A DNA stretch of 48,896 nt from Thermoplasmatota archaeon (lineage in GTDB: Archaea > Thermoplasmatota > Thermoplasmata > Thermoplasmatales > Thermoplasmataceae). Location: NCBI GenBank assembly GCA_023484805.1, contig JAMDAM010000026.1, positions 1 to 48,896 on the forward strand, in the 5' to 3' direction. Shown here one piece after another: positions 6,462-41,297 of the stretch. Both the position numbers and the translations under genes were made by a program. Each line of letters starts with the position of its first letter. The stretch's first letter is position 1. The notes beneath the pieces were generated by a model. It did no database searches, was not told the DNA's origin, and worked only from the letters and a program-made list of their open reading frames with translations.

Positions 6462-7478
6462 ATGATAAATGTAGCAGTGAACGGGTATGGGACCATCGGC
6501 AGGAGGGTAGCTCATGCCGTTCTAAAGCAACCTGACATGAAGGTCTCCGGAATAGTGAAGGCGACCCCGGACTATGTAGCCAGAATGGCTGCGAAGACCT
6601 TCAGGATATACGTTCCTGATGAAATATCAGCCAGGAAGTTTAAGGAAGCGGGGATAGATACTGCGGGCTTGCTGCCAGATCTGCTATCGACAAGCGATAT
6701 AGTTGTGGATGCAACCCCCGAGGGGATGGGCGAGAAGAACAGAACAATGTACACTGGAAAGATAAATGCAATATTTCAGGGAGGCGAGGACAGTTCGGTG
6801 GCAGATGCCAGCTTCAATGCCTATTCCAGTTACGGGGAATGCTACGGTAAGAAATCTGTCAGGGTGGTATCCTGCAACACGACTGGACTTGCAAGGAGCC
6901 TCTTTCCTGTCCACTCTGAAATTGGAATACAGCACGTCAGCGCTACACTAATAAGGAGGGCAACCGATCCAAATGACAGCAAGAAAGGCCCGATTAATGC
7001 CATAGAGCCAAGCCTAAAATTCCCGTCACATCACGCCCCTGACGTAAAGACCGTGATCAGGGATATTGATATAGATACGGTGGCTGTCAAGGTTCCGACA
7101 ACCCTTATGCACGTTCATGTTGTAGATGCAAGGCTCAGGAAAAATGCAACACGGGAAGAAGTTATTGGTGCATGGAGCAAATTCAGGAGGGTAAGGCTTA
7201 TCTCCGGAAAGGATGGCCTCGCCTCCACCGCTCAGATAATGGACATGTCGAGGGAGGGAAACAGGGACAGATCAGACCTCTACGAAATAGTTATCTGGCA
7301 GGACAGTGTTAGCGTAAAGGGAGACCGGCTGAACTATATCCAGGCAGTCCACCAGGAAAGCATAGTGGTACCGGAGAACGTGGATGCCATAAGATCATCC
7401 CTGGGTTCTGCAGGTCAGTACGAATCGATTGACCTGACTGACAGGAGCCTGAGCATAGACAGAGAGGTGTTTTACTAA
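6462..7478 (+). CDS. gap: Archaeal type II glyceraldehyde-3-phosphate dehydrogenase
   Basis: [30 protein letters not shown], catalytic [18 protein letters not shown]. Confidence 0.95.
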
Positions 7479-8446
7479 TGGCGGGAAATGAGAAGGAAAC
7501 TAAGAAAATAACAATAGAAGATCTAGCCGGAGTCGGAGAAGCGACTGCCGAGAAATTGAGAGAAAACGGATATGACGACATAATGACCCTGGCTGTCGCG
7601 TCGCCAAAGGACCTGTCAGAGGTAAGTGGCATAGCAGAGGGCGCTGCAATCAAGATAATAAATGCTGCTAGAAAAGCCGCTGATGTCGGCAATTTCGAGA
7701 CTGGAGAGGAGATCCTTGCCCGCAGGAAGGATGTCAGGAAACTGACAACCGGGAGCAAGAACCTTGATGATTTGCTTGGTGGTGGGCTAGAAACTCAGTC
7801 CATAACAGAGTTCTTCGGGGAATTCGGATCAGGAAAGACGCAGATAATGCACCAGCTTGCAGTAAACGTGACCATGCCATTCGAGAAGGGCGGGCTGGAA
7901 GCCGAAACCATGATAATCGATACTGAGAATACGTTCAGGCCGGAAAGGATAGTGCAGATGGCAAGAGCGAAGGGGGTTGATCCCGACGAGACCCTGAAGC
8001 GTATACATGTGGCAAGGGCATACAACTCACACCACCAGATACTGCTGGCTGAAAAGGCTGCCGATCTTGCCAAGGAATTCAATATAAAGCTGGTAGTTGT
8101 TGATTCCCTAACATCCCACTTCAGGTCAGAATACATGGGCAGAGGGTCTCTGGCTGAGAGGCAGCAGCTGCTCAACAGGCACATGCACGATCTGTTGAAG
8201 TTCTCCACCATCTATAATGCAATCATAGCCGTAACAAACCAGGTATCTGCGAGGCCCGATGTATTTTTCGGAGACCCAACCACCCCAATTGGCGGGAACA
8301 TAGTCGGCCATACCGCAACCTTCAGGATATATCTCAGGAAGAGCAAGGCCGGAAAGAGAATTGCCAGGCTGATTGATTCACCTTACCTTCCAGAGGGTGA
8401 AACCGTAATACAGCTTTCAGAAGATGGAATCAGCGACGGAACCTGA
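7478..8446 (+). CDS. radA: DNA repair and recombination protein RadA
   Basis: N-terminal HhH domain ([20 protein letters not shown]), Walker [28 protein letters not shown]-terminal [16 protein letters not shown]. Confidence 0.97.
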
Positions 8447-20705: not shown

Positions 20706-23069
20706 ATGTTGAACACGATGAAGATAAGGCTCAGGATTGTAGCTTCCTCTTATAGGCAGAGGGACGTCACCGTTGAGCTGTTCGGCAGGACAGATGACGG
20801 CAGATCAGCCACGGCACTTTATTTCGGCTTCAAGCCGTATTTCGACATAGTTGCTCCCTCTGATGCATTCATGGAGAGTTTCAGGAAGAATCCTGAGTAT
20901 GTCAGCGAAAAGGACCTGAAGTTATGGCTCTACGGCCAGGAACGGCCCGTCAAAAGGGTATTTGTGAAGTCTCCGTGGAAAGTGCCTGAACTCCGTGCGC
21001 TCTGCGATTCCGAGACGCTTTCCTCCGACATTCCATTCCATCATCGCTTCATATATGATCTTGACCTCGGTGCCACCGTGGAAATTGAAGGCGAAGAAAT
21101 GCCCGAGGAGAAACGGAGGTATTCCACCGATCTTGTGATCAGAATAGACAATATACATGACACAACTCCCTTCAATCCTGAACTGAAAATCCTCAGTTTT
21201 GACATTGAGAACTCCATCCAGTCCGGGGAGATTTATGTGATAGGGTACGCGATTTCCATGGGTAACAGGATCAGGAAAGGAGAAGTTTCGGGAAAGGAGA
21301 GGGAACTTCTCCAGAATTTTGTAAAACTTGTGTGTGCTGAAGACCCTGATGTCCTGACCGGATACAACATTGACGGATACGATCTTCCCATGATCCAGGA
21401 GAGGATGGCCAAGAATGGCGTGGAATTCAACATAGGGAGGGATTTCAGAAGGCCAAACAGAGTAAACAACCAGTACTGGAGGCTTCATGGCAGGGTGATA
21501 AGCGATACATGGTGGAATGTCAAGAAGATTCTTCACCCGAAACATGAAACCCTGAACTATGTAGCAATGGAACTCCTGGGCGAGGGGAAGGACAACATCA
21601 ACAGGCTGAAGATAGAGGAGGAATGGTCCAACCGGCGTCAGGAAGTGATTGATTACTGCATAAAGGACGCCTTCCTCACGCTTGAGATATTCAGGAAGAT
21701 GAGGGTGATTGACAGGAATCTATTCATGTCCACTGTCACTAAACTTCCCCTGGACGACGTAACAAATGGCGGAACCAGCAATTACGTCGATTCCATACTT
21801 ATAAGGCAGGCGGACCGCGAGAACATCGGTGTCCCGATGACATCACACGATATCAAGGAAAAACCCATAGAGGGAGGGTATGTTCATTCAATCGGGGCCG
21901 GACTGTATGACAACGTGGTAGTCCTGGATTTCAAGAGCATGTACCCATCCATGATAATGAAGTACAATATCTGTTTCACAACCTTTGATCCCAAAGGCAC
22001 AATTGTTGCTCCAACCGGAGCAAAGTTTCTGGCACCCTCAGTCAGGCCAGGGCTGGTTCCACGTATACTAAAAAACCTCATGGAGGAAAGGGACAAAGTA
22101 AAGAGGGATATGAAGAAGGCAACCACTGCTGAGGAGAAGAATTACCTGGACGGCATACAGGGCGCATTGAAAATACTTATGAACACCTTTTACGGAGTGC
22201 TCGCCTCGTCTTTCTACAGGTTCACTAATCTTGAGATAGGAGGTGCCATAACTGCATATGCCCGTGATACCATCACCGGCCTTATCAACCTTCTAAAGTC
22301 CGAGGGAAAGAGGGTAATATACGGTGATACTGACAGCATATTCATAGAGTCAGGAGCTGCCACTCATGAAGATGCGATCAAGATTGGAGAGGACCTGAGC
22401 AGGAGACTTTCAGAGAAGGAAGGGATCATCGTTGAGTTTGAGAAGGTCATGGACCCGTTCTTCTCACATGGCGCTAAGAAAAGATATGCAGGGAAGATTG
22501 TTTTTCCCACTGAGCAGGCGGGGACAGTTCTTGTCCGGGGATACGAGGTCAGGAGGACAGATTCATTCGACCTGCAGAGCGAGGCTCTTTCGAAGGTATT
22601 TGATTATGTCCTGAGCAAGGACGTGGATGGGGCCAGAGAATATGCAAACAATCTCGTGAAGATGGTAAGTTCCGGAGATCCGGGCATTCCCATGGAGAAA
22701 CTGGTGATATCCAGGTCGGTTAGAAAATTTGGCGAGTACAAGGAGAACATGAACCTTGCCAACGTCAGGGTAGCGAAAAAGCTCATGGACAGGGGCGAGA
22801 CGTTCATACCGGGGATGAAGGTATCGTGGATCGTTACCAACAGCAGGAGATCACCACAGGAGGTTGAACCGTTCATTGATGGCACAAAATTCGACGGAAT
22901 CCCGGACTGGAACTACTACGCAAGCAGGGTGAGGGAAACGCTGAATCGTGTCCTTGAGAGCCTGGGCGATGAGATAATGATACCCGAATCCAATTACGGC
23001 ACAGAGACCAATGGGCAAAACACCCGTTCAAGCACTAAGCCAACAACTCTGGATCAGTTTATGGAATGA
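20706..23069 (+). CDS. polB: Family B DNA polymerase (replicative type, canonical motifs)
   Basis: Exo I FDIENS, motif A DFKSMYPSMIMKYN, motif B KILMNTFYGVL, motif C YGDTDSIF. Confidence 0.96.
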   Translation: MLNTMKIRLRIVASSYRQRDVTVELFGRTDDGRSATALYFGFKPYFDIVAPSDAFMESFRKNPEYVSEKDLKLWLYGQERPVKRVFVKSPWKVPELRALCDSETLSSDIPFHHRFIYDLDLGATVEIEGEEMPEEKRRYSTDLVIRIDNIHDTTPFNPELKILSFDIENSIQSGEIYVIGYAISMGNRIRKGEVSGKERELLQNFVKLVCAEDPDVLTGYNIDGYDLPMIQERMAKNGVEFNIGRDFRRPNRVNNQYWRLHGRVISDTWWNVKKILHPKHETLNYVAMELLGEGKDNINRLKIEEEWSNRRQEVIDYCIKDAFLTLEIFRKMRVIDRNLFMSTVTKLPLDDVTNGGTSNYVDSILIRQADRENIGVPMTSHDIKEKPIEGGYVHSIGAGLYDNVVVLDFKSMYPSMIMKYNICFTTFDPKGTIVAPTGAKFLAPSVRPGLVPRILKNLMEERDKVKRDMKKATTAEEKNYLDGIQGALKILMNTFYGVLASSFYRFTNLEIGGAITAYARDTITGLINLLKSEGKRVIYGDTDSIFIESGAATHEDAIKIGEDLSRRLSEKEGIIVEFEKVMDPFFSHGAKKRYAGKIVFPTEQAGTVLVRGYEVRRTDSFDLQSEALSKVFDYVLSKDVDGAREYANNLVKMVSSGDPGIPMEKLVISRSVRKFGEYKENMNLANVRVAKKLMDRGETFIPGMKVSWIVTNSRRSPQEVEPFIDGTKFDGIPDWNYYASRVRETLNRVLESLGDEIMIPESNYGTETNGQNTRSSTKPTTLDQFME

Positions 23070-37372: not shown

Positions 37373-38491
37373 ATGTTGATAGTAAAGAATGCAGCCAGCC
37401 TCGATTTTTCATTTGTCCCTGGTAACCTGCCGGCGAGAGAAGCCGAACTGGAAATGCTCAGGAATATAATCATGGAACCCCTGAAAAGTGGTGTGTCCTC
37501 GACGATCATAATTTATGGCCCCTCTGGAACTGGGAAAACGGTTACCGCAAAATATCTCCTCAGAAGCGATCCAAAGATTATTACAGTATATGAAAACGCC
37601 CTCTCCTTCGGCAGCCTGAAGTCCCTTCTCGTGGATGTTCTCCTGAAGATGGGAAAGGTTGTCCAGGACAAGGGCGTAACATACCAGCAGATTTTCAGGA
37701 TACTCAAGGGGCAGATATCACAGAACGACGGGAAGATGCTTGTAGTGATAGACGAGGCATCCGGGATCATGAAATCTGACCCTGAGGGTTTTTACAACCT
37801 CATACGGGCAGAGGAGCTGTATTCTGCAAAACTGTCTTGCATACTCATTTCAATAGATGATCCGACGACCTACCTTACGGGAAAGCAGCGAAGGGCCTTT
37901 GGAGTCTTCTCATCGATCAGGTTCAGGCCATACTCAGAGGCTGAACTTGAGATGATTGTGGATGACAGGGCTAGAACAAGCCTGCACAGTGGATCGTATA
38001 CTCAGAGCATAATATCGGAGATAGCGCAGATCGCCTCAAGGTTCGGAAGCGCCAGGGTGGCAATAGAGCTTCTCCAGAAATCGGCTTACCTGGCGCAGTC
38101 CAACGGGACAGATGCCATTACACCAGAAGATGTGAGATCCGCCAAGGCACTCATAAACCCGTATGTGACCGAGAGCAAGCTTTCCGATCTCAATACGGAT
38201 GAGCTGATCGTGCTCATGGCAATATGCCGTAATTTATTTGACAATCCAGAAACGGACATATCCAGCACGTATAGCACTGCCAGGATTATTGCTGAGACCC
38301 ATGACTATGATGTGCCTGATCTCCAGAAAATTTACAGGGTCACCAGCAAGCTTGAATCCGTTGGAATGATTGACAGCCGCATTTCCGGAAAAGGCGACAG
38401 GAAGGGAGTGAGCAAATCGATTTTTGTGAACGATATCCCGGTAAAGGTCCTTTTTGAGAAAATTGACGACATGATCAGTAAGGCAAGATGA
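37373..38491 (+). CDS. Orc1/Cdc6-family AAA+ protein
   Basis: Walker A IIYGPSGTGKTVTAKYLL, Walker B MLVVIDEAS, C-terminal wHTH-like region. Confidence 0.9.
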   Translation: MLIVKNAASLDFSFVPGNLPAREAELEMLRNIIMEPLKSGVSSTIIIYGPSGTGKTVTAKYLLRSDPKIITVYENALSFGSLKSLLVDVLLKMGKVVQDKGVTYQQIFRILKGQISQNDGKMLVVIDEASGIMKSDPEGFYNLIRAEELYSAKLSCILISIDDPTTYLTGKQRRAFGVFSSIRFRPYSEAELEMIVDDRARTSLHSGSYTQSIISEIAQIASRFGSARVAIELLQKSAYLAQSNGTDAITPEDVRSAKALINPYVTESKLSDLNTDELIVLMAICRNLFDNPETDISSTYSTARIIAETHDYDVPDLQKIYRVTSKLESVGMIDSRISGKGDRKGVSKSIFVNDIPVKVLFEKIDDMISKAR

Positions 38492-40469
38492 CCTGCGGAT
38501 CCTTCGCGCCTGCCACCAAGAAATCAAAACTCTCAAAGGATCGCCTCAGGTATTTCAGGTAGAAATTCCTGTCTATTCCTGTAGATTTTTCAGGCAACTG
38601 CAGAATGCCATGCTTCCTGTCACTAACTATGACCTGTACAGATTCGCCCGGCATTATGTCATCACCGGATGAGGAGAAGAATTTCATCGCGGCACGCTGT
38701 AGGTTGTTCACCCTGTATTCTTCCATGTGCCTGCTCACCCTTGTCTCAATGGCAAAATCATACAGGCTGAATGTTGCCAGCTCCCGTACGTATCTTCGTT
38801 CCAGTGCCTTGAGTTCGCCAGCCATGGACAGTATATCTGCCCTGTTTTTGCAGTTCCTGAATATATCAAGGGCCTCCATCTGGAATTTCCTGGCGAATGC
38901 CGGGAAATCGCTCCTTCGGATCTCAAGCCCGCGTACCTTGAAAGTGCCGTTCTTCCTTCTCCCCAGATAGCGCCCTGGCGATCCTATCCCGTTTTTACCC
39001 TTAAAGAACGCTATCCAGCTGTACTCTCCGTCTATTACTATGTCTATGCGCGTCTTTTCCCTTATCTCCTTCAGGAGCCCCTCGATGTCACCGTTCCCGC
39101 TAAGCCACAGCGAGTCGACTATGCCATGTATGACATGAAAACCATGTTTCTCAGCAAGTTTCATTGCTGTGGAGAATGCCCATCTGCCCATTGCTGTTAT
39201 TGCTTCATGAACCTCTATCCTTCCGAATTTGGCATTCTTGTACCCTGTGTATCCGAACGACGTCAGAAGCATCCACTTCAATGCCGCATCCCTTTTCTGT
39301 ATGTCCGGATTTCCTTCCTTCAGCGACTTGTACATCAGGCGCCTCTCCAATAGCTCTCGGAGCGCAGTTGAAAGGAATCCTGCCTTCTCCATGTCGACGC
39401 GGTAGTCCGAACCTGGAAGCCTGATCCCTCTGTTGGAATCTATTGTTTCCGGGGAAAGGTTATACCTGACTATTATGCTCGGGTACATTGAAGAGAAATC
39501 AATTTCGATGACATCCTCATATATGCCTGGTTCCGGCTGCAGCACAATTCCGCCCTTATCACGGTCAAACAGATCTGTTGCCGGTTTCTCCTTTTCGTGG
39601 TCATCCTTGTGTAGGGGGACAAGTATGCCGCTCCTTATGGCGTGTGAAACTTCCAGCGAGGATACTGCAGTTCCAGGCGTTACCCGTGAAGCCTGCACTA
39701 TTGGCAACGACGACATTCTTGACACCTCATAAAGCCCTGGAAGGCCGCTTTCGGAATATATGAACGAATCGGTGCTTATGCATAACTTTCCCGGCATGCT
39801 TATCTCCGGCGATTTGTGCAGTACTCTTCCGTATGATTCATATGAAGAGCCGTTTCCCACTGTATAAGACGGCAGCCTGTATCCCATGTCCGAAATTCTG
39901 TTCAGTATTTTCTGGAAAACCTGCCTTGCATTGCTGTAAAGAATGATCAAATTGTTGTTTATGGCGTCAGCTGCGTCTCTGAATGATGACCTGGTTGGCG
40001 CCATCTCATTTCCATCTATATTTATGGACGTTATTCCGGAGAAATCAGATCTCCCTCCAATGACCACCGACGGTATTTCCGGATCCGGATCATGCATGGA
40101 TCCTACCCCAAAAAATGATAGTCCCTTCTCGGCCATGAAACGAAGGTGCTGGCTTATTCCGGCGTTATATACGGAAAGTTTTCTTGACAGCCCTATTACT
40201 CCAATTGCCTCAACCACACTGTCTATCTGGGACTGCTTCAGGATTATTTCTATCCCGTGCAACTGCCCGTAAACATTCCTGTGTGTTGTGTAACTGTAGG
40301 ATATGCCCCTGACAACATCGAGTTCACGGGCCAGCATGTCAAGGTCATATTCAGATCCGGAGGCAAATATCCATGGAAAAAAGCTGTATTTCCGCCTTGT
40401 TACCCTTCCATCCTCGTATTCCCACAGCGTTATGATGTCCGTGCCCGTTGCGTTTATAATCTGTCTCAA
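38475..40469 (-). CDS. Divergent family B DNA polymerase (PolB2-like)
   Basis: Motif A IDFSSMYPSIIVRYN, motif B LKWMLLTSFGYTGYKNAKFG, altered motif C HGIVDSLW (39105-39128); no recognisable exonuclease FDIE motif. Confidence 0.88.
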   Translation of the reverse strand: MRQIINATGTDIITLWEYEDGRVTRRKYSFFPWIFASGSEYDLDMLARELDVVRGISYSYTTHRNVYGQLHGIEIILKQSQIDSVVEAIGVIGLSRKLSVYNAGISQHLRFMAEKGLSFFGVGSMHDPDPEIPSVVIGGRSDFSGITSINIDGNEMAPTRSSFRDAADAINNNLIILYSNARQVFQKILNRISDMGYRLPSYTVGNGSSYESYGRVLHKSPEISMPGKLCISTDSFIYSESGLPGLYEVSRMSSLPIVQASRVTPGTAVSSLEVSHAIRSGILVPLHKDDHEKEKPATDLFDRDKGGIVLQPEPGIYEDVIEIDFSSMYPSIIVRYNLSPETIDSNRGIRLPGSDYRVDMEKAGFLSTALRELLERRLMYKSLKEGNPDIQKRDAALKWMLLTSFGYTGYKNAKFGRIEVHEAITAMGRWAFSTAMKLAEKHGFHVIHGIVDSLWLSGNGDIEGLLKEIREKTRIDIVIDGEYSWIAFFKGKNGIGSPGRYLGRRKNGTFKVRGLEIRRSDFPAFARKFQMEALDIFRNCKNRADILSMAGELKALERRYVRELATFSLYDFAIETRVSRHMEEYRVNNLQRAAMKFFSSSGDDIMPGESVQVIVSDRKHGILQLPEKSTGIDRNFYLKYLRRSFESFDFLVAGAKDPQVILPY

Positions 40470-40717
40470 ACCCCTTCATTCCCGTGCCGCTTTTCCATCG
40501 TGTCGATCTTCTTGGCGAGTTCAAGCAATATAGATATGAGAAATCCGGAAAAACTGTCAAGCGTTGATGTTGACACTTCCGGAGAATGAATCTGCCCCAT
40601 GGCAATTATCCTTTCAAAAACCTCAACGTCCTCCCTCCTCATTACGGATTCCATCCTGCGGATCTGGTCCACAAGGCGTTTTGTGTCCTGCCTGGTTGTC
40701 AGTGTTGTTCTTCCCAC
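40466..40717 (-). CDS. Small helical protein of unknown function, translationally coupled to PolB2-like gene
   Basis: 83-aa ORF; 4-nt overlap with the PolB2-like ORF and 19-nt overlap with the upstream gene. Confidence 0.65.
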   Translation of the reverse strand: MGRTTLTTRQDTKRLVDQIRRMESVMRREDVEVFERIIAMGQIHSPEVSTSTLDSFSGFLISILLELAKKIDTMEKRHGNEGV

Positions 40718-41175
40718 GAATACAGGCCTCCCTCAACTTTACTCTCAATGTTCCGCACAGGCGATGAAAACCGCCTGCCCAGGTACTCCATGAAAGGCCC
40801 TGGCTCACCTACAACATAAAAGTATATCATGCAGCCATGGTAATATGATTTTATCTTCAGGATGTCGTATATGCTCTGCAGGATATCTGATTCCCATGAC
40901 GAAATGACCTCAGACCTGATTCCTATGAAATGGGGGGCGTCATCTGTTTCCATGAGCGTTTTCTGCAGCTGGTATGACGTAAGGATTCTCTCCACCAAAA
41001 CGGCTCTCGCAACATTCTCCGGAAACTGCCTAAGGAAATCCACCATGATACCGTCTGATACCATGAGGTGCACTTTCTCATTGGATCCGGACCTGTCCAT
41101 GAAATTGCTGAATTCAGCAAGCCCAATATTGTTGGCAATTACCATCCTTAGGTGTCCCGGCATGATCCGAATCAT
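40699..41175 (-). CDS. Protein of unknown function, first gene of the PolB2-like cassette (possible degenerate RecA-fold)
   Basis: ORF runs to 41274, but a TATA-like TTTTTTAATTTAC (41201-41213) favours the in-frame ATG at 41175 (MIRIMPGHLRMVIANN...). Confidence 0.65.
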   Translation of the reverse strand: MIRIMPGHLRMVIANNIGLAEFSNFMDRSGSNEKVHLMVSDGIMVDFLRQFPENVARAVLVERILTSYQLQKTLMETDDAPHFIGIRSEVISSWESDILQSIYDILKIKSYYHGCMIYFYVVGEPGPFMEYLGRRFSSPVRNIESKVEGGLYSWEEQH

Positions 41176-41200
41176 CAGGTCATAAGTAAAAGCCGTTTTG

Positions 41201-41213
41201 AGTAAATTAAAAA
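41201..41213 (-). promoter_or_regulatory. Predicted TATA box of the PolB2-like operon
   Basis: Reverse-strand TTTTTTAATTTAC, roughly 32 nt from the ATG at 41175. Confidence 0.4.
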
Positions 41214-41297
41214 ATGAGCAAATGAGATGTCTCTCGAATGCAGATCGTATTTCCTGAAAACTGTCGCCAGGCATTCCGGTAGAAAAGTGCAGGGCGG

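Follow-up and report, generated by a model that had tools for sequence, protein, structure and literature searches.

What do three overlapping minus-strand genes of a Thermoplasmatota archaeon, one of them coding for a divergent polymerase, encode together, and what controls their expression? An earlier note on this DNA proposed an archaeal mutasome-like complex in which a degenerate RecA/RadA-fold protein and a small helical adaptor accompany a PolB2-like polymerase. We find that proposal essentially right: the locus combines a PolB2, a RadA-fold protein and a helical partner in a conserved gene order, and the cassette is very probably the PolB2 mutasome operon of this Thermoplasmata archaeon. 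The operon and its inactivated RadA were noted and predicted by Makarova et al. 2014 (Makarova and Koonin; PMC4104785), and Timinskas et al. 2025 modelled the PolB2-iRadA-PPB2 complex (PMC11791011). The mutasome reading is therefore not new. The promoter box described below looks new, whereas the cassette had already been described.

Layout of the locus

All coordinates refer to the window, the whole stretch of 48,896 nt that was analysed, and are collected in Table 1.

Table 1. Positions and properties of the features discussed
Feature	Position	Strand	Remarks
iRadA	40699..41163	minus	154 aa; inactivated RadA-like accessory
PPB2 (arCOG07300 type)	40466..40717	minus	83 aa; GTG start; helical small partner
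PolB2 polymerase	38475..40469	minus	664 aa; TTG start
Tandem promoter box CTCATTTGCTCATTTT	41211..41226	minus	47 nt upstream of iRadA start; candidate activator/operator site
TATA-like stretch TTTACTTA	41183..41190	minus	about 25 nt upstream of start codon
Divergent orc1/cdc6 paralogue	37373..38491	plus	convergent with polB2; overlaps polB2 3' end
Genuine RadA recombinase	7478..8446	plus	PF08423, 280.5 bits; distinct from iRadA
Other B-family polymerase	20706-23069	plus	PF03104, 1.2e-16; YGDTDS

The ORF listing contains the three overlapping ORFs where the earlier note had placed them, and the first two share 19 nt (40699-40717), as claimed. The 4-nt overlap between PPB2 and PolB2 (40466-40469) also stands, but it is not of the ATGA type; it reads TTGA, a TTG start joined to a TGA stop. 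The first ORF is open from 41274 (191 aa). Because the relatives align from MxGxLxI onward, the iRadA start lies most likely at 41163, which gives a protein of 154 aa beginning MPGHLRM..., close to the approximately 158 aa claimed.

The polymerase

The 664-aa protein belongs to NF004416 (NCBIfam; 591.9 bits against a cut-off of 516) and matches PF00136 (6e-21). A family search found no exonuclease match in it, whereas the other polymerase of the window has, as had been claimed, an exonuclease domain (PF03104) together with YGDTDS and is a normal B-family enzyme. Motif A of PolB2, EIDFSSMYPSI, is intact. In motif C, HGIVDS, the first Asp of DxD has become Ile (IVD), in contrast to YGDTDS in the replicative enzyme; with the family score above its cut-off, this degenerate motif bears out the description of a PolB2-like polymerase with degraded motifs. 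The D(K/R) motif upstream of the palm domain is present as DRDKGG, and most relatives have D, K/R and GG here. The nearest named relative that we found is the Thermoplasmata archaeon MAG DX4.bin16, with 96% identity across the portion of PolB2 that could be aligned. A scan with one simple pattern gave no match to a PCNA/clamp-binding motif near the C-terminus of either PolB2 or iRadA of the window.

The loss of the first Asp of DxD raises the question of whether PolB2 is catalytically dead, in which case the complex would have a structural or regulatory role, for instance acting with the linked Orc1/Cdc6 to initiate replication or to control the origin. This was suggested in PMC4104785, when the family was thought to be inactive, and it fits with the orc1/cdc6 paralogue, which tblastn placed next to the operon, in identical position and orientation, at each of the family loci tested. 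However, the motif A Asp and the motif B Lys are conserved among the relatives, and the window protein keeps both; moreover, Sulfolobus Dpo2, which carries the same IxD change, is reported to be an active translesion polymerase (PMC11791011). We consider a dead enzyme unlikely. From the Sulfolobus case we infer a translesion function for the PolB2 of the window.

The neighbouring paralogue matches TIGR02928 at 8.1e-50, below the cut-off of that model, and a canonical orc1/cdc6 is found elsewhere in the genome (C9).

The accessory protein and its small partner

The proposal that the first protein is a degenerate RadA fold without Walker A gains support from its predicted structure, from Foldseek and from a transitive profile link. 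Walker A is absent from the 154-aa sequence. An AF2 model built with 37 relatives (pLDDT 80.8, pTM 0.76) has strands alternating with helices, and a Foldseek search with this model returned mostly RecA/RadA-class folds at a TM of about 0.5; the best E-values were those of thymidine kinases, with RecA folds close behind. The earlier note had named a clear unrelated fold as evidence against its proposal, and what is predicted is a RecA-type fold. Neither a direct hhalign comparison of the short iRadA with RadA nor a PDB sequence search with it gave a significant match. Because the direct comparison failed, a bridge of larger iRadA proteins was needed: the short iRadA is linked to the larger iRadA (E 2.4e-9) and the latter to the RadA of the window (E 5.4e-15), these values being pairwise and the bridge proteins coming mostly from other orders. 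The homology suggested by these profiles is thus transitive, via larger relatives. The iRadA lacks the N-terminal helical domain, an absence that belongs to the definition of the mutasome, and a separate intact RadA was present in 31 of the 31 genomes searched. The iRadA of one genome (L060, G024) retains TGIPQLDSLLGGGLYPGITEFY while the P-loop lysine is gone; it stands midway between RadA and the short form.

The 83-aa protein is helical, as the earlier note had it, according to an AlphaFold model (pLDDT 88) with three main helices (residues 8-25, 28-43 and 55-80), and it is always paired with the RadA-like protein of the PolB2 operon. A PDB sequence search with PPB2 gave helical matches at chance level only. 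Its N-terminus is MGRTTLTTR. Among 38 sequences M1, G2 and R3 are invariant and R9 is at least 90% conserved; the MGRT motif of PPB2 has been described (PMC11791011).

The W-E-E tail at the C-terminus of iRadA and the MGRT start of PPB2 are encoded by the same DNA (40699-40717 in the window) in two frames. This shared DNA was seen in 39 of 44 overlapping cases. The tail should be read with care as a motif because the other frame encodes MGRT, and the conservation of either one may drive that of the other.

Conservation of the gene order

PolB2 was found in 83 of the 117 genomes of the order, many of which are incomplete MAGs, with related genomes not counting as independent. A PPB2 start lies directly upstream of PolB2 in all 57 distinct genomes examined. 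In 56 of these, from several families, an ORF in the place of iRadA overlaps PPB2 or directly adjoins it, and 37 of the 56 ORFs were aligned as homologues. Across the phylum, PPB2-type proteins occur in 70 of 145 genomes, and in most loci examined in other orders an MGR[TS] protein stands beside an upstream ORF that is often RadA-like. Thus, the gene-neighbourhood survey that the earlier note had called for found the three-gene synteny conserved in related genomes, where its absence had been named as counter-evidence.

The three-gene arrangement is not due to chance. One could still suppose that adjacency and translational coupling are all that joins the genes, with both small proteins at work elsewhere, but the order kept in nearly all genomes and several families, the spread of PPB2-type proteins through the phylum and the gene fusions that have been reported (PMC11791011) make this highly improbable.

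Taken as a PolB2 mutasome, the complex would work as published studies of other archaea suggest. PolB2 would extend, with no proofreading, primer ends that are damaged or mispaired, and would bind iRadA in the way that RadA subunits bind one another. PPB2 would form a trimer, of which one subunit would insert its MGRT arm into the PolB2-iRadA cleft near DNA. DNA damage would induce the operon.

A tandem box upstream of the operon

The regions upstream of the operons share a 16-base tandem box, CTCATTTnCTCATTTT, which usually lies 39-57 nt before the iRadA start. Among 17 genus representatives the box forms an island of conservation, with 1.45 bits per column where the flanks have 0.28 and 0.41, and the A+T fraction is maximal at -26/-25, as in a TATA box. 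From these sequence features we infer a promoter of the leaderless type, which together with the upstream tandem box would drive transcription of the operon; after damage an activator, possibly the linked Orc1/Cdc6 paralogue, would bind the box.

The exact box occurs once in the window's own genome. A search of 117 genomes gave 45 exact matches, compared with none for a backwards control. Of these, 16 lie at PolB2 operons, a circular result because the consensus was built from PolB2 operons; another 6 are part of a repeated element, and the remaining 23 are at other places. A search of 15 genomes that tolerated one mismatch gave 83 sites, compared with 14 for the control. When the box was scored at 36-60 nt before a gene start, 34 of 37 PolB2 operons, which were the training set, reached at least 12, compared with 0 of 325 background genes; a score of at least 10 was reached by 1 of the 325. 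The box was not found at the PPB2 loci of other orders. A limited literature search found no earlier report of such a damage motif or box in Thermoplasmata.

The loci examined for the box were L145-L171 and L172-L241, beside the window copy. Six exact matches, all from G078 and G080 (L152-L155, L159 and L164), were set aside because they are repeat copies; they lie inside the repeat CTCATTTACTCATTTTTCACACAGACAGAAGAG and its variants, apparently the end of a mobile element.

Outside the PolB2 operons, the exact box occurs upstream of radA in four g8 genomes, at a distance of about 297 nt; at the standard distance upstream of radA it was seen in none of the genera sampled, and an Rfam scan of the radA leaders returned nothing. 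It also precedes a small gene beyond which lies one for a DEAD-box helicase, genes of a family of 60-67-aa proteins, a gene for an AbrB-like protein, ileS with a small gene in between, a gene of the radical-SAM class, and a cytosine methylase gene followed by one for an HhH-GPD glycosylase. The intergenic sites with one mismatch include nre in the genus of the window and nurA in g8. Scores of at least 10 were reached by 5 of 29 nre genes (4 of 28 without the first match, after which nre was picked) and by 4 of 30 nurA genes, compared with the single background gene. A box-like site lies 48-49 nt before nre in all four congeners, including the genome of the window, where it scores only 9.6.

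Two further associations were observed. In four genera (L146, L170, L226 and L238) a small gene (66-99 aa, ..ERIGIxxLRK..) comes after the box, with a class I tRNA synthetase gene (ileS-like) next in line. Elsewhere (L149, L158, L161, L166, L163, L165, L147, L202 and L237) it is followed, 35-47 nt on and mostly 46, by the start of a protein of 60-72 aa with ..GKxEQL..FEDFKxxLRDxIxKxD..; two of these proteins were searched against Pfam, without a match.

On sequence grounds, the box is a candidate operator of a DNA-damage regulon. We propose tentatively, rating it somewhat short of an even chance, that it defines such a regulon in this family, as a positive element that would serve the mutasome, nre, nurA, radA, the radical-SAM gene and a few small proteins, lineage by lineage, and might be read by the Orc1/Cdc6 paralogue. 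To the contrary reading, that the box is no damage-regulon operator but one of the family's ordinary T-rich core-promoter elements, we give very nearly an even chance. The presence of the box before ileS, the DEAD-box helicase operon and small genes of no known function agrees with an ordinary element, as does its absence from the loci of other orders, and several of its targets are not repair genes. On the other hand, an ordinary element would hardly be expected to score so rarely at neighbouring genes and so often at the PolB2 operons of the training set, or to exceed its backwards control so clearly, and several targets, Nre, NurA and RadA, are repair genes.

The Orc1/Cdc6 paralogue is possibly a regulator. 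Control of the paralogue by the box was tested and is unsupported: because its gene has no upstream box, nothing ties the paralogue to the box.

Comparison with known systems

The likeness to the bacterial Pol V and ImuA-ImuB-DnaE2 systems, in which a small partner and an accessory of RecA fold likewise accompany an error-prone polymerase, is one of analogy only, because the polymerase here belongs to the B family whereas the bacterial ImuA/ImuB or Pol V mutasome is recognised by a Y-family polymerase subunit. In addition, the accessory here is RadA-derived, and the cassette is without a partner of the UmuD or ImuB type.

The agreement with the archaeal PolB2 mutasome comprises the gene order, the MGRT arm, the IxD motif C, the DK motif, the degenerate exonuclease, a RadA relative without ATPase residues or N-terminal domain, and the orc1/cdc6 neighbour; in archaea an orc1/cdc6 homologue is enriched near this system. 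A clamp-binding motif occurs in some members only, and the simple-pattern scan found none near the C-termini of the window proteins. The present family differs in that its iRadA is very short, 154 aa compared with ORFs of about 230-300 aa at many loci of other orders, and reaches RadA through intermediates only, and in its promoter box, of which the parts of PMC11791011 consulted make no mention. Thus, a family with a very short, fast-evolving iRadA still keeps the MGRT arm, the degenerate motif C and the gene order.

The dpo2 operon of Sulfolobus contains the same three genes, and there too an orc1/cdc6 paralogue is implicated. Detailed knowledge of damage-response regulation in archaea comes mostly from Sulfolobus and its Orc1-2, whose damage-response element is ANTTTC (PMC9738581); if the box with its repair-gene targets is what we tentatively propose, it would open a damage regulon of another archaeal phylum to direct tests. 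In contrast to the Sulfolobus element, the box is a 16-bp tandem repeat and a predicted site, and the window copy, with ATTTGC, departs from ANTTTC, whereas the commonest form of the box contains ATTTTC, which fits.
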